DNA of 64,000 bases from Coriobacteriia bacterium. GTDB lineage: Bacteria; Actinomycetota; Coriobacteriia; Anaerosomatales; PHET01. A program made the position numbers and the translations under genes. The notes beneath the pieces are model-generated. The model saw only the letters and a program-made list of their open reading frames with translations. It searched no databases and had not been told where the DNA came from. Positions 31,306 to 61,468 of this stretch are shown one piece after another. The DNA lies in the NCBI GenBank assembly GCA_034370385.1, contig JAXMKZ010000005.1, positions 186,001 to 250,000 of the forward strand, read 5' to 3'. How positions within the stretch are numbered: position 1 is the stretch's first letter; every line of letters begins with the position of its first letter.

Positions 31306-32673
31306 ATGAGGATGAAACACAGAGCAGTCGTGGCGCTTGCTGTGGTACTGGCGCTGACTCTTGGGGTTGGCGCGACGATGGCACTGGCTCAAGGTGTGCC
31401 GGTCGAGAAAGGCAACGCCAAGCCAGAGGACTTCCCGCCGGTGGTGGGATGTGGATGCCACTCGGCCCTCATCGATCAGTGGTCGAAATCCATGCACGCG
31501 CAGGCGCTGACCGACCCGCTCTACCTCAGCAAGCTCGCTGAAGGCCAGAAGGCGACGGATGGCGCTCTTGGGGCGTTCTGCAACAAGTGCCATGGCCCCG
31601 CGGCGACCATGACCGGCGAGATCGGCAACAAGCAGCTCTCTGCGGGAGTAGCGGGTGGCGTGAACTGCACCTGGTGCCACCAGGCGGTGGGCAATGCGGG
31701 CGAGCCCGCGAACGTCTCGCAACTGGTGGTGCTTGATGGCGTGCGACGCGCGCAGATCAAGGACCCCCAGGCTCCGCACCCCGCTCAGTACTCCGCGTTC
31801 CACGAGAGCGCCGAGATATGTGGGGGATGCCACAACGTGAACCACCCGGTGAACGGCATGCACCTGGAGGCAACGTACACTGAGTGGCAGAAGAGCCCGT
31901 GGGCCGCAGAGGGAGTGACCTGCCAGGATTGCCACATGAGCAAAGCTCCCGGCGAGATCGGGCCCTTCACGGGACAGGCCGCCGGTGGTGCTCCGGAGCG
32001 AGACAACCTGTATGCGATGACGTTCACGGGAGCCCAGGTTGAGCTGGGCGATCCCGTACTGGCTACCGCCATGCTGCAGTCTGCGGCGACCGTCAAACTG
32101 GAGGCGCCGGAGATCCTTGCCAGCGGCTCATCTGACGTGACGGTCACCATCACCAATGTGGGCGCGGGGCACTATCTGCCCACGGGACTCACTGAGATTC
32201 GTGAGATGTGGCTGGAGGTCTACACCGTCGATGAAGCCGGTGCAAAGGCCGTCATCGGCGAGCACATGTTCGGGACGATCCTTGAAGATGCCGAGGGCAA
32301 CTCGCCGGCCGAGCTGTGGGACGCGGTCAAGATCAAGTCGGACGACCGCATCCCGCCGCGCGAGTCCGTGACCGACAAGTTCTCATTCACGATGCCGGCA
32401 GGCGCCGAGCAGACGACGCTGACCGCAGCACTGTTCTACCGTTCCGCGCCCGAAGAGATGGCGAAGAAGGCCGGACTCAAGAATCCGACGACAGAGATGG
32501 CGAAGGCCACACAGGTCGTCTACGCCAGCGAGCAGGCGCAGCTCCAAGCGGCGAAGACGGACGTGGGCCAGGGCAAGTTCTTCGACGGGCTGAACCTGTT
32601 CGTGGCGCTGGCCGGGCTGGCCGTCGTCGCGGGTATCGTGTTCTGGTTCACGCGTCGCAAGAGGACTGCCTAG
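31306..32673 (+). CDS. Membrane-anchored multihaem c-type cytochrome
   Basis: 455 residues. A Sec signal (residues 3-28, cleavage near LAQG) leads to an extracytoplasmic domain with four canonical CxxCH sites: CNKCH 92-96, CTWCH 121-125, CGGCH 172-176 and CQDCH 206-210. The first expected site is shortened to C49-G-C51-H52 (CxCH). QWSKSMHAQALTDPLY resembles cytochrome c554-type proteins. Residues ~240-400 form a beta-rich domain. A C-terminal helix (LNLFVALAGLAVVAGIVFWF) with an RRKR stop-transfer anchors it. GGGAGGGG precedes ATG 31306. Likely role: electron transfer at the outer face of the membrane; the redox partner is unknown. Confidence 0.88.
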   Translation: MRMKHRAVVALAVVLALTLGVGATMALAQGVPVEKGNAKPEDFPPVVGCGCHSALIDQWSKSMHAQALTDPLYLSKLAEGQKATDGALGAFCNKCHGPAATMTGEIGNKQLSAGVAGGVNCTWCHQAVGNAGEPANVSQLVVLDGVRRAQIKDPQAPHPAQYSAFHESAEICGGCHNVNHPVNGMHLEATYTEWQKSPWAAEGVTCQDCHMSKAPGEIGPFTGQAAGGAPERDNLYAMTFTGAQVELGDPVLATAMLQSAATVKLEAPEILASGSSDVTVTITNVGAGHYLPTGLTEIREMWLEVYTVDEAGAKAVIGEHMFGTILEDAEGNSPAELWDAVKIKSDDRIPPRESVTDKFSFTMPAGAEQTTLTAALFYRSAPEEMAKKAGLKNPTTEMAKATQVVYASEQAQLQAAKTDVGQGKFFDGLNLFVALAGLAVVAGIVFWFTRRKRTA

Positions 32674-41848: not shown

Positions 41849-43735
41849 ATGACGCCCACATCTGACCCCACAAAGACCGCCGACGCGCTGTGCCACTGTC
41901 ACCCGAGCGGCACGGAGGCGAGGCAGGGCGTCGACACCGTCGTCCTTGCGGGCAACCCGAACGTAGGCAAGTCGGTGGTATTCGCCGCCTTCACCGGCAC
42001 GTATGTGGACGTCTCGAACTTTCCGGGCACCACGGTCGAGCTCATGCGGGGCCGCTTCGGCGACATCGACGTCATCGACACGCCGGGTGTGTACGGAGTA
42101 TCGAGCTTCAATGACGAGGAGCGCGTCGCCCGCGACATCATCCTCACCGCTGACGTGGTGGTGAACGTGGTCGACGCGGTCCACCTCGAGCGCGATCTCT
42201 TCTTGACTCTGCAGCTGATCGACATGGGCAAGCGCATGGTGGTCGCGCTCAACATGGCCGACGAGGCGCGCAAGCGTGGAGTCGGCATCGATCGGGACCT
42301 GCTCGAAGACCTTCTGGGCGTTCCGGTCATCGAGACGGTGGCCGTCACCGGCGCGGGCATGGAGGAGCTTAAGACGTCGCTCGCACGCGGACGCTCGGGA
42401 CACGCCGACCACGAGCTGGAGTCCGACATCATCGAGATGGCCACGCTCGTAGGCACGCGGGCGGAGGCCCTCATGGTGCTTGAGGGCGATACGGTCGTCA
42501 GTGAGAGACACGGCATCGAGCCGCGAGCGCTGCGTGACGAGATCTACCTCAGGCGGCGCGACCGCGTGAACGACATCTGCCACCACGTGGTCACCGAGAC
42601 CACGCAGGGAGCGTCGTTCTCGGCTCGGCTCTCGCACTGGATGATGCACCCGGCGACGGGTCTGCCGATGCTTCTACTGCTGCTGTGGGGGATGTGGATC
42701 ATCCTCGGGCAGTGGATAGCCGGCGGTGTGGTCGGCGTGCTCGAAGAGAGCCTGATGCTTGCCTACTGGGTTCCGTTCGTCCAAGGCCTCGTCGAATCGG
42801 TCTTCGCTACGGGATCGGCCATGTACACCATCCTGGCCGGGGAGTTCGGCGTGCTCACCATGACCCCCACGTATCTTGTCGGGGTGATCCTTCCGCTTGT
42901 CGTCGGCTTCCAGCTGCTGATGGCGCTCTTGGAGGATTCGGGCTACCTGCCACGCGTTGCGGCGCTCGCCGATCGTTCGCTTACCAGTGTGGGGCTCAAC
43001 GGACGGGCGATCATTCCGCTGATCCTGGGCCTGGGCTGCGTGACGATGGGAACGCTCACCACGCGCATCCTTGGCAGCAGACGTGAGCGCTTCATCGCCA
43101 CCGCGCTCATGGCCATCGCCGTTCCCTGCTCCGCGCAGCTTGCCGTCATCGCCGGCTTGATGGCCAGGACGGGCCCCTACTACTCCGCGCTGTACGTCTT
43201 CTTTCTCGTCGTGGTCTTCGGAGTCGTTGGGGCGGTGCTCAACCGGTTCGTGCCGGGGCAGTCCACCGATCTGCTGATCGACCTACCGTCGCTGCGGATA
43301 CCGCGGCTGGACAATGTCGTGCGCAAGAGCGGCACCAAGGTGTGGCACTTCATGAAGGAGGTCACCCTGTTCTTCGCGGCTGGTGCGTTGATCATCTCGG
43401 TGCTCGAGGTGACGGGTGTCCTCGGCTGGATCATCACGGTAGCGGCGCCACTGACCGTGGGCTGGCTGGGGTTGCCCGCGGAGGCGGCGACCGCCTTCGT
43501 GATGGGCTTCGTGCGCCGTGACTTCGGCGCCACCGCGTTCTTCACGATGGAGCTCACCGACGCCCAGCTGCTCGTCGGCATGGTCACCATCACGCTGTTC
43601 GTGCCGTGCATCGCCTCGGCCATGGTCATCCTCAAGGAGCGAGGATGGGGCTTCTTCGTCGGCCTGTTCGCCGGATCGATCGGGGTCGCGTTTCTCGTGG
43701 GCGGGCTTATCGCCCGGCTGCTCGGGGTGGTGTAG
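41849..43735 (+). CDS. feoB: Ferrous iron transporter FeoB
   Basis: 628 residues. The GTPase domain has G1 GNPNVGKS (35-42), G3 DTPG (77-80) and G4 NMAD (135-138). The membrane domain has paired gate segments, PLVVGFQLLMALLEDSGYLPR, the Cys-containing LGLGCVTMGTLTTR and NVVRKSGTKVWHFMKEV. It imports Fe2+ anaerobically. Odd feature: the N-terminus carries a CHCH motif (C15-H18), a possible metal-binding extension before the GTPase. It is shorter than E. coli FeoB (about 770) but within the range of compact versions. ATG follows GGAG at the usual distance. Confidence 0.95.
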   Translation: MTPTSDPTKTADALCHCHPSGTEARQGVDTVVLAGNPNVGKSVVFAAFTGTYVDVSNFPGTTVELMRGRFGDIDVIDTPGVYGVSSFNDEERVARDIILTADVVVNVVDAVHLERDLFLTLQLIDMGKRMVVALNMADEARKRGVGIDRDLLEDLLGVPVIETVAVTGAGMEELKTSLARGRSGHADHELESDIIEMATLVGTRAEALMVLEGDTVVSERHGIEPRALRDEIYLRRRDRVNDICHHVVTETTQGASFSARLSHWMMHPATGLPMLLLLLWGMWIILGQWIAGGVVGVLEESLMLAYWVPFVQGLVESVFATGSAMYTILAGEFGVLTMTPTYLVGVILPLVVGFQLLMALLEDSGYLPRVAALADRSLTSVGLNGRAIIPLILGLGCVTMGTLTTRILGSRRERFIATALMAIAVPCSAQLAVIAGLMARTGPYYSALYVFFLVVVFGVVGAVLNRFVPGQSTDLLIDLPSLRIPRLDNVVRKSGTKVWHFMKEVTLFFAAGALIISVLEVTGVLGWIITVAAPLTVGWLGLPAEAATAFVMGFVRRDFGATAFFTMELTDAQLLVGMVTITLFVPCIASAMVILKERGWGFFVGLFAGSIGVAFLVGGLIARLLGVV

Positions 43736-53231: not shown

Positions 53232-54029
53232 ATGACGTCGGTTGAGTTCTGGAGCAGCTGGTGGTGGCCTGCGCTGACCGCAGTGACAGGGCTCGTGTTC
53301 GCCGCGCTCGTCTTCGCGCAGTGGTTGGCGCGTCGCAAGGCTCACCAGTTGTGTTGGGCTGTCGGTCTGTTGATGTACGCGGTCGCGGCGATGATGGAGG
53401 CATGGTCCGAGTACACCGGTGTCTGGGATCCGACGGTCTATCGCATCTACATCGTGCTGGCGGCGTCACTGGTCGGATATCTCGGTAGCGGATCGGCATA
53501 CCTGATGATCCACAAGCGGCGTTGGGTCGCGCATGTGTATCTCGCGTATAACATCGTGCTCACAGCGATCTTTCTGATCGGAGCCTTCACCGCCGAGCTT
53601 CGCATGGAGTACCTGGTTCCCGGGATCACCGTCGGAGGCCAGGCCCTGGGTGCGCCGGGGTCGTTCCCCCGGTACCTGTCGATGTTCATCACCATCCCCG
53701 GTACGTTCTTCTTGCTGGGAGGTGCGATCGTCTCGGTGTGGCGTTTCGCCCGCAAGAAGGAGTACGCGTACCGGATGTGGGCGAACGTTCTCATCGCCGC
53801 GGGCACGGTGCTCATCGCCTGGGCGGGCTCCCTGGCTCGTGCGGGGCAAGCGGTCGGGCTCTATCCCGCTGAGATGGTGGCGTCGGCACTCCTGCTGGCG
53901 GGATTTCTCATGGCGGGCGACCTGAAGAAGGGTGCGCATGCCGCGATCGAAGCCGGTCAACAGCGCCGAGCCGCCCAGGCCGAAGCTGCCGACGGGGCGG
54001 CCCAGAGGCCCGATCAGCCTTCGTCGTAG
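53232..54029 (+). CDS. Seven-helix membrane protein, 265 aa
   Basis: ATG 53232 follows AAGGAG. Roughly seven hydrophobic helices, including WPALTAVTGLVFAALVFAQW, LCWAVGLLMYAVAAMMEAWS, IVLAASLVGYLGSGSAYLMI and MWANVLIAAGTVLIAWAGSL, then a basic, Ala/Glu-rich cytoplasmic tail. The layout recalls membrane-sensor (7TM) domains, but no family is recognised. Third gene of the PAS-protein unit; its end overlaps the converging Crp/Fnr gene by 16 bases. Confidence 0.75.
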   Translation: MTSVEFWSSWWWPALTAVTGLVFAALVFAQWLARRKAHQLCWAVGLLMYAVAAMMEAWSEYTGVWDPTVYRIYIVLAASLVGYLGSGSAYLMIHKRRWVAHVYLAYNIVLTAIFLIGAFTAELRMEYLVPGITVGGQALGAPGSFPRYLSMFITIPGTFFLLGGAIVSVWRFARKKEYAYRMWANVLIAAGTVLIAWAGSLARAGQAVGLYPAEMVASALLLAGFLMAGDLKKGAHAAIEAGQQRRAAQAEAADGAAQRPDQPSS

Positions 54030-54730
54030 CCGCTGCTCACGCTGGCGAGGGCGCGCACGTCGAAGATGGTGATGGTGCCGCCGTGCACCTCGAGAATGCC
54101 GTCGTCTTTGAGGCGCGCGAACGCCCGCGAGAGCGTTTCGGGCACGGTCCCGAGCGCCATCGCGAGCTCGCTTTTCTTCATGCCGAGTTCCACGACGAGG
54201 CCTTGGGGATCGGGCTTACCTCCCTGCAGCGCGCGCTGGAAGAGGTAGCGGGCGAGTCGACCGGGCACATCGAGCGCGAGGGTGTGGACGACGCTTGTGA
54301 AGTTGACCACGCGGTTGGCCAGGTCGGCGATGAGCGTGCGGGCCACCTGCGGCTCTGACTCGAGCAGGTCGAAGAGCGCCTCAGACGGCAGGAGGGCCAC
54401 CGTGGCGGCGGTCGCCGTCTCGATGTGCGCGGGGTAGCGCCCGCCGGACAACGATGCGACGGCGGCAAGCGGGTCGCCGGTCTCCATCGTCTCGAAGGTG
54501 AGCTGCTTTCCGTCTGCTCCCAGGTAGAACGCCCGGGCTCGTCCGGCGATCACGATCCCAAACTCACGCGCGGGCTCTCCTTCGACCGCGAGAGTGGTGC
54601 CCCGGGGCACGTCCCGGACCTGCGCGCGATGCGCCAGCTGCACCACCGCCTCATCGCTTGCCGTGCGCCACAGCCTGCAGGCGCGAAAGGCGGACCAGAC
54701 GTCGGCTCTGAGCTCTCTCTGGGCGCTCAC
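54014..54730 (-). CDS. Crp/Fnr-family regulator (probably NO/hcp-type)
   Basis: 238 residues from GTG 54730 with GAGGAAG upstream; an upstream ATG lies in the promoter. The cyclic-nucleotide-binding-like domain (RGTTLAVEGEPAREFGIVIA, GRARAFYLGADGKQLTFETM) is followed by a long helix and a C-terminal HTH with MKKSELAMALGTVPETLSRA. There are no N-terminal FNR cysteines. Divergent from the ygbA-ferredoxin-hcp genes with an FNR-like box between, it is a candidate HcpR/DNR-type NO-responsive regulator (inferred from context). Confidence 0.87.
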   Translation of the reverse strand: MSAQRELRADVWSAFRACRLWRTASDEAVVQLAHRAQVRDVPRGTTLAVEGEPAREFGIVIAGRARAFYLGADGKQLTFETMETGDPLAAVASLSGGRYPAHIETATAATVALLPSEALFDLLESEPQVARTLIADLANRVVNFTSVVHTLALDVPGRLARYLFQRALQGGKPDPQGLVVELGMKKSELAMALGTVPETLSRAFARLKDDGILEVHGGTITIFDVRALASVSSGYDEG

Positions 54731-54782
54731 AGGCTCTTCCTCACTGGTTACCTGACTGCAAGGGTAAGAATTCTCCGCCCTC

Positions 54783-54796
54783 TTGACCTGCATCAA
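54783..54796. promoter_or_regulatory. FNR/DNR-like operator between regulator and NO-stress operon
   Basis: TTGAC-CTGC-ATCAA, differing by one base from TTGAT-N4-ATCAA. The -10-like TAGCGT at 54819-54824 would put transcription start near 54831, which centres the box at about -41.5, the class II activator position for the ygbA-fdx-hcp operon. Confidence 0.7.
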
Positions 54797-54876
54797 GGAT
54801 ACGGCGAAGCGGCGTGGGTAGCGTAGCAGTCGCCGGGGGCCTTCAGGGTTTGCGGCAGGAAAGGAGTTCTCAGATC

Positions 54877-55326
54877 GTGAACGAGCGATTCACCGGGAAG
54901 ATGGCGGACAAGCAGGTGGCGCACGACGTCACCGTGCTCGCGGACTTCGTGCAGCTCTGGTGCGATGGGCACCACGCGGAAGGTAAGCGCACGCTCGTGG
55001 AGACCGATGCTGCCAGGCTGGGCGTCTACGGACGCAAGACGCCCACGTTGTGCGCAGAGTGCGTAGCCCATCTCGCGTATGGCGAGAAGCGCCGCGCCTA
55101 CTGTCCGAAGGACCCCAAGCCGTTCTGCGCACACTGCGACACCCACTGCTACTCCGCCGAGGAGCGGCTCTGGCAGCAGCAGATGATGCGCTACTCCGGT
55201 CCCCGATCGTGGCGCAAGGGCCACGCGATCGATGGCATCAAGCACGTGTTAGGGGCGCGCACGTGGCGCCGAGAGATGGCGCGACGGGCCGCCCAGGCCC
55301 CCGCGAGACGAGAGGAAGACTCATGA
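54877..55326 (+). CDS. YgbA_NO-family (nitrous-oxide-stimulated promoter) protein
   Basis: 149 residues from GTG 54877 (AAAGGAG ten bases upstream). FVQLWCDGHHAEGKRTLVET, PTLCAECVAHLAYGEKRRAY, CPKDPKPFCAHCDTHCY and MMRYSGPRS follow the E. coli YgbA pattern with seven conserved cysteines (C29, C59, C62, C76, C84, C87, C91). E. coli ygbA is NO-induced (NsrR regulon). It probably binds an iron-sulphur cluster. Its stop overlaps the ferredoxin start. Confidence 0.85.
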   Translation: MNERFTGKMADKQVAHDVTVLADFVQLWCDGHHAEGKRTLVETDAARLGVYGRKTPTLCAECVAHLAYGEKRRAYCPKDPKPFCAHCDTHCYSAEERLWQQQMMRYSGPRSWRKGHAIDGIKHVLGARTWRREMARRAAQAPARREEDS

Positions 55327-55709
55327 CAAAGACGGTCAACCGCCAGATCGTGCGGATCGACGAGGAACTGTGCAATGGATGCGGCGTATGCGTCAGCCCG
55401 TGTGCCGAGGGCGCCATCGTGCTCGTCGACGGCAAGGCGAAGGTGGTTCACGAGGAGCTGTGCGACGGTGCCGGCTTCTGTCTAGGGGTGTGCCCGACCG
55501 GCGCACTGACCCTTGAGTATCGCGAGACGGTCCCCTTTGACCATGACGCCGCCGCGCCGATCATCGAGGAGAAGAAGGCGAACTACATCGCCCAGCACTG
55601 CTTCAACTGCAGCGCTTCCGAGGACGAGCGGCCGCTGCTGCCTGTACGCATCAAGGGTGATTCGACGTGGGTGTGCACGAGGTGCCTGCCTGCGCTCATC
55701 CACGGCTGA
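55323..55709 (+). CDS. Ferredoxin of the hcp operon, 128 aa
   Basis: A first 4Fe-4S site C17-x2-C20-x2-C23-x3-C27 (CNGCGVCVSPC) is complete. The second, CDGAGFCLGVCP (C47, C53, C57), lacks the second cysteine, the CDG-type pattern also seen in other Hcp-associated ferredoxins. An extra pair of CxxC, C93/C96 and C118/C121, lies at the C-terminus and could bind another centre. It likely donates electrons to Hcp, encoded next. ATGA overlap with the YgbA gene. Confidence 0.87.
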   Translation: MTKTVNRQIVRIDEELCNGCGVCVSPCAEGAIVLVDGKAKVVHEELCDGAGFCLGVCPTGALTLEYRETVPFDHDAAAPIIEEKKANYIAQHCFNCSASEDERPLLPVRIKGDSTWVCTRCLPALIHG

Positions 55710-55759
55710 TTGGGTCAACGACCCTACCCAGACACCCCAGACCCGACGAGAGGAATCGC

Positions 55760-57406
55760 ATGACAACCCAGCTATCCGAGATGTTCTGTAACCAGTGCGA
55801 GCAGACGGCCAAGGGAACAGGCTGTACCAAGGTCGGCGTCTGCGGGAAGAACCCCGACGTCGCCGCGCTTCAGGACCTGCTCGTGCACGCGTGTCGCTCG
55901 CTGGCCGCGGTTGCGGCTTCGGCCCCAGCCGGAACCGACCTGAACGTGGAGTCGCGATTCGTCGAGGATGCGCTGTTCACCACGCTCACCAACGTCGATT
56001 TCGGTGCGGAGACAGTGGCCGCGAAGGTGGACGAGGCCCTGCGCCTGCGCGACGACCTGGCACAGCGGCTCGGACTGCTCACCTCGGTGCACATGATCGA
56101 CTCGGCCCTGGGGCGCGACGTGGCAGGCAAGATCGAGCTCGCGGCCTCGCTCGGCAGCCCGTGGGACATCACGCGCGACATCGACGTGCAGTCGCTTCAG
56201 GAGACCACGCTCTATGGCATGAAGGGCATCGCGGCCTACGCGCACCATGCCCGCACCCTCGGCCAGACGGACTCCGAGATCGATGCGTACCTGTTCCGCA
56301 CCCTCGTTTCGCTGGATGATCAGGCTCTCGGCCTTGAGGAGTGGGTGGGCATCGCGCTCGAGTGCGGCAAGGTCAACCTGCGCACCATGGAGATCCTCGA
56401 CGCCGCGAACACCGGCACGTTCGGGCAGCCCGAGCCGACCAAGGTGACCCTGGGTCAGCGTCCGGGCAAGGCGATCCTCATCTCCGGTCACGATCTGGCA
56501 GACCTCAAGGCGCTTCTCGAACAGACCGCGGGCACGGGCGTCGACGTCTACACCCACGGCGAGATGCTCCCGGCGCACGCCTACCCCGAGCTCAAGAAGT
56601 ACGACAACCTCGTGGGCCACTTCGGCACCGCGTGGCAGAACCAGCACAAGGAGTTCACCGAGTTCCCCGGCGCCATTCTGCTCACCACCAACTGTCTGAT
56701 GCCGCCCAAGGCCGAGTACAAGGAGCGCCTCTTCACGGCGAACGTCGTCCAGTTCCCCGGTGTGCCGCACGTGCATCGCGACGATCTGTCGGCCGTCATC
56801 GAGGCGGCGCGGGCCTCCCAGGGTTTCGCGTGGGACACGACTGTCGGTGAGGTCATGGTCGGCTTCGGCCACAACACGATCCTTTCCGTCGCCCCGACCG
56901 TCATCGAGGCCGTGAAGTCCGGTGCCATTCGCCACTTCTTCCTGGTCGGCGGCTGCGACGGTGCGCGCCCGGGCCGTAACTACTACACCGAATTCGTCGA
57001 GGAGACCCCCAGCGACACGATCGTGCTGACGCTTGCCTGCGGGAAGTTCCGCTTCTTCGACAAGGATCTCGGCGAGATCGGCGGACTGCCGCGCCTGATG
57101 GATGTGGGCCAGTGCAACGACGCCTACTCCGCGATCAAGGTCGCTGCGTCGCTTGCAGATGCGTTCGAGTGCGGCGTGAACGACCTGCCGCTGTCGATGA
57201 TCCTGTCGTGGTACGAACAGAAGGCCGTAGCGATCCTGTTGAGCCTGCTGTATCTGGGCATCACCGACATCCGGCTTGGCCCCACACTGCCGGCGTTCAT
57301 CACGCCCAACGTGCTCGGAGTGCTCGTCGAGAACTTCGGCATCAAGCCCATCGGGGCGAGCCCGCGCGAGGACCTGGTCGCGATTCTCGGACACGCGGAG
57401 GCCTAA
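55760..57406 (+). CDS. hcp: Hydroxylamine reductase / hybrid-cluster protein (Hcp)
   Basis: 548 residues from ATG 55760 (GAGAGG upstream). N-terminal cluster ligands C10, C13, C22 and C28 (CNQCEQTAKGTGCTKVGVC). The hybrid-cluster region has FFLVGGCDGARPGRNYYTEF, LTLACGKFRFF and DVGQCNDAYSAIKVA. Hcp reduces NO to N2O and can reduce hydroxylamine. Operon: YgbA protein, ferredoxin, Hcp, small haem protein. The FNR-like box upstream suggests NO or low-oxygen induction. Confidence 0.96.
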   Translation: MTTQLSEMFCNQCEQTAKGTGCTKVGVCGKNPDVAALQDLLVHACRSLAAVAASAPAGTDLNVESRFVEDALFTTLTNVDFGAETVAAKVDEALRLRDDLAQRLGLLTSVHMIDSALGRDVAGKIELAASLGSPWDITRDIDVQSLQETTLYGMKGIAAYAHHARTLGQTDSEIDAYLFRTLVSLDDQALGLEEWVGIALECGKVNLRTMEILDAANTGTFGQPEPTKVTLGQRPGKAILISGHDLADLKALLEQTAGTGVDVYTHGEMLPAHAYPELKKYDNLVGHFGTAWQNQHKEFTEFPGAILLTTNCLMPPKAEYKERLFTANVVQFPGVPHVHRDDLSAVIEAARASQGFAWDTTVGEVMVGFGHNTILSVAPTVIEAVKSGAIRHFFLVGGCDGARPGRNYYTEFVEETPSDTIVLTLACGKFRFFDKDLGEIGGLPRLMDVGQCNDAYSAIKVAASLADAFECGVNDLPLSMILSWYEQKAVAILLSLLYLGITDIRLGPTLPAFITPNVLGVLVENFGIKPIGASPREDLVAILGHAEA

Positions 57407-57410
57407 GGTC

Positions 57411-57812
57411 ATGAAGCGAGCCCTTCTCATCTCGGTCGTCGCAGTTGCCGTGCTGGTCGGTGCAGGGGGATTCGTGTACGCGTTTGGGACGCCTCAGGCA
57501 CCCGACGTCGCCGCTCCAGCGGCGGTGCCGGGTGCAGCGGCGGGCTTGTCGCCCGAGGAGGCGACGGCCCCGCAGGTTTCGCCCGTACCCCCAACGGAGC
57601 CGGGAGACGGTTCGTCGACCATGGGCGGAGGCGACCCTTCTGCACGGGGCAAGAAGGCCCCGCCGGCGGACCCCAGCGCTCCGCTCGCCCTGGAGATTCC
57701 GGGGTGCGTGTGTCACAGCGATGACCCGAAGCTCGTCGAAGAGCACGCGGGCTATCGCATGAATCAGTGCGCCGGCTGCCACGTCGGCGGTACGCCGACG
57801 GGTCAGGAGTAG
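57411..57812 (+). CDS. Small membrane-anchored c-type haem protein, 133 aa
   Basis: ATG 57411 directly follows hcp (4-bp gap). An N-terminal signal anchor (ALLISVVAVAVLVGAGGFVY) precedes a Pro/Ala-rich linker to ~90. The C-terminal 40 residues hold one canonical haem site C120-AG-C123-H124 and a shortened one C99-V-C101-H102, with H112 between. Probably exported and able to carry one or two haems. Its position suggests extracytoplasmic NO/redox chemistry, unproven. Confidence 0.75.
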   Translation: MKRALLISVVAVAVLVGAGGFVYAFGTPQAPDVAAPAAVPGAAAGLSPEEATAPQVSPVPPTEPGDGSSTMGGGDPSARGKKAPPADPSAPLALEIPGCVCHSDDPKLVEEHAGYRMNQCAGCHVGGTPTGQE

Positions 57813-59780: not shown

Positions 59781-60422
59781 CTAGAAGTCCACGTCGTGGT
59801 CGACGCGTGCGGTGCGCCGCACGGCGATGCGGCTTGCGTAGAAGCTCATCGCGGTGCCGCCGACCATGAGCACCGTGCTCGCCCAAAACACCGGCAGCAT
59901 GAACGGTGAACGCTGCAACACGGCTACCACGATGCCGAACACGATGAACCCCAGATGCAGAAGCCCGCTACCGAGCTTCGTGAAGCGCCCCTCAGTGAGG
60001 TAACTCGGACCCTTGGCTCCGACGGCGGTCATGACCACCACGGCCACCTGAATGAGGGCCGCGAGTGCGAGGTAGACCGCGATGCCGTCTGCGAGCGAGC
60101 GCGTCACGAGGTAGGCTCCGACGCCTCCCGCCACCATGAGTGCGGACACCACGATGAGGGTGCGGCGGGCAAACAGGCGCTTGGGGACGCACAGGCCCAT
60201 CACGACGACCAGCCCCATGAGCTGCGGGGCCGCGATCGCGTTCATGGCCTCCACGTAGCCCGTGTAGGAGACCTGCTCCCAGCCGGGAATCGTGCGCTGG
60301 GCCCACCACACGTAGATCGTCCCGAGGAAGCTTTGCACACCGAGCCCTCCCAGCAGCACCACCGTCAGAACCGTGAGGCCGAAATCCCAAGAGCGCTGGC
60401 GCGTAGTCTCTAGTTCGCTCAC
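59781..60422 (-). CDS. Polytopic membrane partner of the CcsA-like protein, 213 aa
   Basis: GTG 60422 overlaps the CcsA-like stop by 4 bases (GTGA), so the two are translated together. About six hydrophobic helices (TVLTVVLLGGLGVQSFLGTI, LIVVSALMVAGGVGAYLVT, LALAALIQVAVVVMTAVGA, LGFIVFGIVVAVLQRSPFML). It does not look like ResB/CcsB, the usual CcsA partner. Role in cytochrome c biogenesis is inferred only from the neighbour. Confidence 0.7.
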   Translation of the reverse strand: MSELETTRQRSWDFGLTVLTVVLLGGLGVQSFLGTIYVWWAQRTIPGWEQVSYTGYVEAMNAIAAPQLMGLVVVMGLCVPKRLFARRTLIVVSALMVAGGVGAYLVTRSLADGIAVYLALAALIQVAVVVMTAVGAKGPSYLTEGRFTKLGSGLLHLGFIVFGIVVAVLQRSPFMLPVFWASTVLMVGGTAMSFYASRIAVRRTARVDHDVDF

Positions 60423-61441
60423 AGCCCTCTCACCGCCTCGAGGACGAGCGCTGCGAACTGCGTCGGTGCCGCCAGGGCGTAACTGTGGGCACCGGGGACG
60501 ACGTAGGTGGTCACGTAGGTCAACACCAGAATCGCGAACGATAGCAGCGACAGGCCGGCCACCGTCTTCCACATGCCCTGGCGGCGCAGGTACAGCCGGG
60601 CGTGCAGGTAGGCGGTGTACAGAAGCCACATCATGAGCGACATGTTGACCTTGCCGCTCCACCACCAGGAGTCGCCGCTCCACGCCAGGATCGCCCACGG
60701 GAAGCCGATGAGCATGCCGAACGTCAGCGGTAGGTAGCCGAAGCGCGCCCACCGGTAGGAGGTCGTCTCGTACGCAGAATGGCGATGCGAGATCATGAGC
60801 AGCGTGGCCAGGAACGACAGCGCAAACGCGCCGTAGCTCAGAAACAGAAGCGGGGGATGCACCCACATGTACCAGGCGTTGTAGTAGTACTGCATCGCGT
60901 TGTACATGCCCTCGAAGGCCTGCTGCGCGGGCACGCCCCCCATCGAGGTTGCTTGCAGATAGCCGGTGAACTGCCCGATGAAGCCGGGTACGGGATCGGT
61001 GAAGGGCTGGCCCACGAGGGCGGCACCTGCGGCCAGAACCGCGGTGATGAGCATCGCGCCCGGCAAGAGTTCTTCTCGGTGGCGCCGCATCACGCTGCCC
61101 AGCACCGCGACGGCGAGCGCCCAGACGAAGAGCTTCTCAGACTCCACCCACAGAGGCACCGCCACCCGCCCCGCGATGACGCCGGTAGCGGGATCGACCA
61201 CGGCCGAAAGCTGCCAGAGCTCGAAGTGGAACCAGGCCAAGACGGCCTCACCCATAAGCAGCAGCCCGGTCATGCCCCCAAGGACCCATCCGCGCCAGCG
61301 GCGGGCAGCCGGAAGCACCGCGGCCAGGCCGAGAAGCAGCGCGGCTGCAACCAGTAGCGCTTGGTACGGAGTACCGATCAGCGCAAGCGTCTGCGTCAGC
61401 GACTGCAGCTCGGCATAGGTCTGTTCGGGCGAAGCGGGCAT
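60419..61441 (-). CDS. ccsA: Cytochrome c assembly protein, CcsA/CcmC-type
   Basis: 340 residues from ATG 61441, preceded by GGAGCGCGG. Multiple helices with family features: the HPPLLFLSYGAFALSF helix, the Trp-rich segment around WSGDSWWWSGKVNMSLMMW and further His-bearing helices. Such proteins handle haem for attachment to c-type cytochromes, several of which lie in this window. A TATACT at 61469-61474 would start transcription inside the alternative GTG start, supporting the ATG. Confidence 0.85.
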   Translation of the reverse strand: MPASPEQTYAELQSLTQTLALIGTPYQALLVAAALLLGLAAVLPAARRWRGWVLGGMTGLLLMGEAVLAWFHFELWQLSAVVDPATGVIAGRVAVPLWVESEKLFVWALAVAVLGSVMRRHREELLPGAMLITAVLAAGAALVGQPFTDPVPGFIGQFTGYLQATSMGGVPAQQAFEGMYNAMQYYYNAWYMWVHPPLLFLSYGAFALSFLATLLMISHRHSAYETTSYRWARFGYLPLTFGMLIGFPWAILAWSGDSWWWSGKVNMSLMMWLLYTAYLHARLYLRRQGMWKTVAGLSLLSFAILVLTYVTTYVVPGAHSYALAAPTQFAALVLEAVRGL

Positions 61442-61468
61442 CCGCGCTCCAAGATCGGCGACCCCCAC

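Follow-up and report, generated by a model that had tools for sequence, protein, structure and literature searches.

Here we report a shortened form of the c-type haem-binding motif that appears to be kept unchanged across many species and in several kinds of predicted electron-carrying protein of an uncultured bacterial group. The canonical motif (CxxCH) has two residues between its cysteines and the short form (CxCH) has one. The window, by which we mean the whole stretch of 64,000 nucleotides that was analysed, holds two such sites, one in a small protein encoded directly 3′ of hcp and one in a predicted pentahaem cytochrome (Table 1). Both had been picked out in a first-pass annotation as standing ahead of canonical motifs, and closer inspection confirms them: the sites are CxCH and not CxxCH, and each protein also has at least one CxxCH. 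Taken as a whole, the observations are best explained by reading CxCH as a shortened c-type haem motif, which would have arisen in the pentahaem protein by the loss of one residue and would make the small protein a two-haem carrier; we consider this explanation probable. Genome annotation counts haems by CxxCH, with longer forms added in some pipelines, and so either miscounts CxCH proteins or, as with the small one, has no family model for them. A short motif conserved in nature would also allow a direct test of how exacting haem-attachment systems are about the spacing of the cysteines.

Table 1. Features of the window discussed in the text, with positions counted from its first nucleotide.
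Feature	Position	Strand	Remarks
Pentahaem c-type cytochrome (predicted), beta domain and C-terminal membrane helix	31306..32673	+	Motifs; model pLDDT 89.9; 5ze8 Z 29.1
CGCH, haem-1 site of the pentahaem protein (predicted)	31450..31461	+	One residue shorter than in relatives
CRP/FNR-type regulator	54014..54796	-	Divergent from the cluster
YgbA_NO family protein (PF11756)	54814..55326	+	E 6e-17; conserved neighbour
Ferredoxin (4Fe-4S dicluster)	55329..55709	+	Conserved neighbour
hcp, hybrid-cluster protein / hydroxylamine reductase	55757..57406	+	PF03063 E 6e-160; TIGR01703 E 2.5e-214
Small protein, 133 aa	57411..57812	+	Hydrophobic N-terminal anchor, Pro/Ala-rich linker, C-terminal CVCH-x17-CAGCH domain
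CVCH, short haem motif of the small protein (predicted)	57705..57716	+
Conserved His (CH-x9-H) of the small protein, candidate distal haem ligand	57744..57746	+	Alignment H112 invariant; 55/55 homologues
CAGCH, canonical haem motif of the small protein	57768..57782	+
Small membrane protein beside the CcsA-like gene	59781..60413 (about)	-	Adjoins the CcsA-like gene in 14/14 loci having it
CcsA/CcmF-like protein	60419..61468	-	PF01578 E 9e-21; WWWSGKVNMS replacing the WWD motif; both periplasmic His kept

The short spacing of the small protein is invariant wherever the protein was read. A search of its own genome and 60 relatives, all of one order, gave a credible match in 48 of the 61 genomes, from which 49 proteins were read (31 from the 30 best loci and 18 from further matches); the other 13 genomes had no match judged credible and were hence left out of the reading. 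All 49 have CxCH, as do all six homologues read from elsewhere in the phylum, and the full arrangement of CxCH-x17-CxxCH with a histidine at CH-x9 is found in 55 of 55, although the genomes are related to one another and neither these nor any later counts are sets of independent events. That histidine is a putative distal ligand, and as the only extra conserved histidine for two motifs it would leave one haem with no obvious distal ligand, unless pairing in a dimer or with a partner protein supplies one. The search expression permitted one to three residues between the cysteines, and no CxxCH version was present among the 55 homologues read, so that what stood in the place of CxCH can be asked here only of an internal repeat and by analogy with other families. 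The repeat comes from four of the six loci outside the order, in which the small domain forms the N-terminal end of a longer, six-motif protein that has another five CxxCH; in all four, one of the canonical motifs repeats the CH-x9-H spacing, which we read as an internal repeat with CxCH standing where the other copy has CxxCH. The small protein matches no Pfam or NCBIfam model, and its profile found only MtrF in the PDB (E 0.22). A hydrophobic stretch at its N-terminus was read by eye. In the fused proteins (L280, L281, L284 and L285) the six-motif cytochrome also holds a zinc-ribbon-like CxxC...CxxC stretch.

In the pentahaem protein, CGCH comes first and is followed by four CxxCH, after a signal-like start read by eye. 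The protein is present in 37 of the 61 genomes of the order, which yielded 40 matches; two are fragments missing the haem-1 end, and the 38 readable homologues all have CxCH at haem 1. Conserved spacing in related proteomes, one of the checks that the first-pass annotation had proposed, is found in both proteins. Outside the order, 396 genomes sampled from the phylum gave 22 copies readable at haem 1 (17 with CxxCH, one with CxCH and four with C-T-TGA-H) and three further fragments unreadable there. The single CxCH copy, on contig 71 of genome G363, has a companion in the same genome with CxxCH. The CxCH columns align with the CxxCH of copies from outside the order, the missing residue forming a single gap, and in a tree of 58 rows all 38 CxCH rows (37 from the order and that of G363) form one clade (100/100), with the TGA rows in a separate clade (100/100) beside CxxCH rows. 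These relationships indicate that the pentahaem CxCH is a canonical haem site that lost one residue and has kept its short form since; if CxxCH is ancestral, short spacing would have arisen twice in this family.

The structural model of the pentahaem protein points to the same canonical site. It resembles Thermochromatium tepidum cytochrome c552 (5ze8) and the ExtKL type in overall fold and in the order of the haem sites, aligning with 5ze8 at rmsd 2.7 over 326 residues (VIA-align; Z score in Table 1) and with a Foldseek E of 1.7e-17. Among the VIA-align rows, 5ze8 alone extends over the haem part, the others matching the region of the beta domain. At the site aligned to haem 1, 5ze8 carries a canonical CANCH, and it is in having CxCH there, together with a C-terminal membrane helix, that the protein of the window differs from c552 and the ExtKL type. 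A passage of PMC11976967 links ExtKL-like proteins with c552; the match of the window's protein to the NCBIfam ExtKL model (NF040886) is weak, at 57.6 bits for a cut-off of 250.

The first-pass annotation had supposed that the motif recurs in this lineage, and this has held up: CxCH is found in at least four protein families of the genome, at places that are conserved in relatives. The third family is a multihaem membrane protein encoded on contig 19, in which ten of the twelve motifs are CxxCH and the other two CxCH; both short sites are present in 14 of 14 close orthologues (its own copy included). Of the further homologues, three have CxCH at the first site alone and one at the second alone, whereas both sites are CxxCH or more widely spaced in paralogues and remote homologues. 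Full-length copies of this twelve-motif family keep 11-12 sites, only the spacing having changed; in the homologues L318 and L320 the same places have longer spacings (CNDVGCH and CRTRCH). The fourth family is a lipoprotein of 63 aa on contig 29 (L297, about 120146-120334), which ends in CSCH and three more residues and was found in four of the 61 genomes, with CxCH in all four. The gene just before it encodes a second small lipoprotein, in which a similar His-Pro is followed by a canonical CGNCH. The occurrence of CxCH in separate families argues that the spacing change recurs. CxCH and CxxCH share the same Cys-His end and stand at homologous positions in the pentahaem and twelve-motif proteins and their relatives; homology to a canonical haem site is seen in these two families directly and in the small protein by the internal repeat only.

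The data speak directly to sequence, homology, conservation and gene neighbourhood; for the CxCH sites we infer haem occupancy, bond chemistry, topology and a role in electron transfer. The second cysteine and the histidine stand where they do in CxxCH, the one predicted to form the normal thioether and the other to serve as proximal ligand. The first cysteine, one residue nearer, might reach the other vinyl group through a tighter loop, bond to it through an extra sulfur, or stay free. The pentahaem site would be a canonical one that was shortened by one residue and then retained, and in the small protein CVCH and CAGCH would most likely each bind a haem on an extracytoplasmic domain anchored in the membrane.

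An alternative is that the CxCH pair binds no haem at all, the four cysteines and His of the small protein holding zinc or another metal and the short sites of the multihaem proteins being decayed haem sites that persist for structural reasons. In favour of this, CxC...CxxC is an arrangement often seen in metal sites, none of the homologues read for the small protein has CxxCH, and its longer relatives hold a CxxC...CxxC stretch outside their haem motifs. The same six-motif relatives, however, have five canonical haem motifs beside CxCH. Decay, for its part, would not leave both cysteines and the histidine invariant, nor keep the pentahaem site in 38 of 38 homologues of the order, nor give full-length twelve-motif copies in which 11-12 sites persist and spacing alone differs. 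We regard the absence of haem from these sites as unlikely.

If CxCH is a shortened haem motif, it joins a small set of departures from CxxCH. A passage of PMC3601427 describes CX3CH, CX4CH, CX15CH and the CxxCK of NrfA as non-standard haem motifs of c-type cytochromes; these variants are longer or have the histidine replaced, whereas the CxCH loop is shorter, and the CcsA-like candidate for its attachment does not track it (see below). The same source notes an extra sulfur between cysteine and haem at altered spacing, and reports that System I haem attachment goes wrong when the cysteine spacing is altered, which we have counted against the CxCH reading. In the open-access literature searched CXCH occurred as a haem motif only once, in a passage of PMC11218250 where it is one of the haem expressions listed for the FEET multihaem search; this is a search setting and not evidence of haem binding, and because the literature covered was open-access only, the absence of CXCH elsewhere is weak evidence.

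The pentahaem copies with a TGA codon at haem 1 may extend the pattern. In the four loci concerned (L264, L266, L268 and L270, of family f24 in the phylum sample) the site reads C-T-TGA-H in every case, and all four genomes have a tRNA-Sec above the cut-off, as do the genome of the window and others with no TGA site. In each of the four loci a CGAGC/GCTCG hairpin, a candidate SECIS element, starts about 17 bases past the TGA. C-T-UGA-H is consistent with a possible selenocysteine in a haem motif of the same short spacing, which would place selenium beside the proximal histidine of the haem iron. The related ExtKL of Geobacter has been reported as a putative selenoprotein (PMC5877670), and CXUH had no occurrence among the open-access matches listed. 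It is possible, if somewhat less likely than not, that C-x-(C/U)-H is a genuine class of haem site, repeatedly evolved and selected, which has its own bond chemistry, tunes particular haems and is served by the ordinary attachment systems of the cell. The bond in such a class may be a tight double thioether, a persulfide bridge, a single thioether or, in the UGA clade, a selenoether.

The genes around the small protein suggest a setting for it. Both YgbA and hcp are part of the nitrosative-stress response, and with the CRP/FNR regulator and ferredoxin they make up, as judged from gene content, an Hcp nitrosative-stress cluster in which the small gene sits. The neighbourhood was compared in 37 records, mostly titled Coriobacteriia or Actinobacteria/Actinomycetota and one Anaerosomatales; because the pattern that retrieved them already contained CxCH, they informed the comparison of neighbouring genes and not the conservation counts. 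In 34 of the 37 the small gene comes after YgbA and ferredoxin; the other three records start within hcp, at a contig end. The CRP/FNR gene is present in at least 31 and the CcsA-like gene with its partner in at least 14, both lower bounds since several contigs are short. hcp was found in 29 loci, and in eight (L212, L214, L218, L227, L229, L231, L237 and L238) it was not, the ferredoxin gene being followed directly by the small CxCH gene with YgbA alongside. The small protein would most likely be a small electron carrier, or a haem protein linked to NO or nitrite, working with this cluster.

The CcsA-like pair that the first-pass annotation had placed about 3 kb downstream is real and lies 2-4 kb away. 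The suggestion of that annotation that the pair handles CxCH amounts to a dedicated lyase, as NrfI is for CxxCK and a CcsA-type protein for CX15CH (Wolinella), and according to a passage of PMC3601427 these two unusual motifs do have dedicated biogenesis proteins. The linkage is also suggestive: the CcsA-like gene is found with a strong match (E below 1e-50) in 38 of the 61 genomes of the order, all 38 of which encode at least one of the two CxCH proteins, small or pentahaem, and of the 33 genomes with both it and the small protein, 24 carry them on one contig within about 6 kb. In the 42 rows compared, a conserved WWWS[GP]K[VI]NMS, or a close variant of it, takes the place of the WWD motif, and every row keeps the HPP and PG.H histidines. 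The gene nevertheless does not occur where, and only where, CxCH does. Fifteen genomes of the order (two of them under 75% complete) and three outside it (G062, G078 and G093) have the small CxCH protein and lack the gene, and among the 23 genomes of the order without the gene, 17 encode a CxCH protein of one kind or the other. Conversely, genomes such as G120, G238, G301, G312 and G408, outside the order, have the gene with a CxxCH pentahaem protein and no small CxCH protein found. We have therefore set a dedicated lyase aside as quite improbable, given that co-occurrence does not track the motif, although the linkage is real. CcsA/CcmF-like proteins with the WWD replacement are spread over several lineages of the phylum, and the genome has five other PF01578 proteins. 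The small membrane partner matches no NCBIfam model, and the longer open reading frame over it (59781-60866) no Pfam model.

Motif frequency had been proposed in the first-pass annotation as one check, with a count no higher than random as one part of the refuting outcome. For the bare motif such a count is what we obtained: CxCH (TGYNNNTGYCAY) has 148 sites genome-wide as against 192 in a reversed control. GCxCH (GGNTGYNNNTGYCAY) has 25 as against 14, just four of the 25 lying in plausible secreted haem-type proteins. Bare motif counting thus fails to separate haem sites from noise and was, in our judgement, the wrong test; with counts not clearly above the control, the question becomes the conservation of particular sites. 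Two coincidental CxCH strings in the window would agree with the bare counts, which do not exceed the control, but have practically no chance of being the explanation because CxCH is conserved across the order and beyond. The inventory took in 100 of the 148 sites and all 25 GCxCH sites, about 43 non-GC sites on later contigs being left out, which makes the list of CxCH proteins in the genome incomplete. Within the window a further CHCH lies near the N-terminus of FeoB (41849-43732), where it is presumably cytoplasmic and not a haem site.
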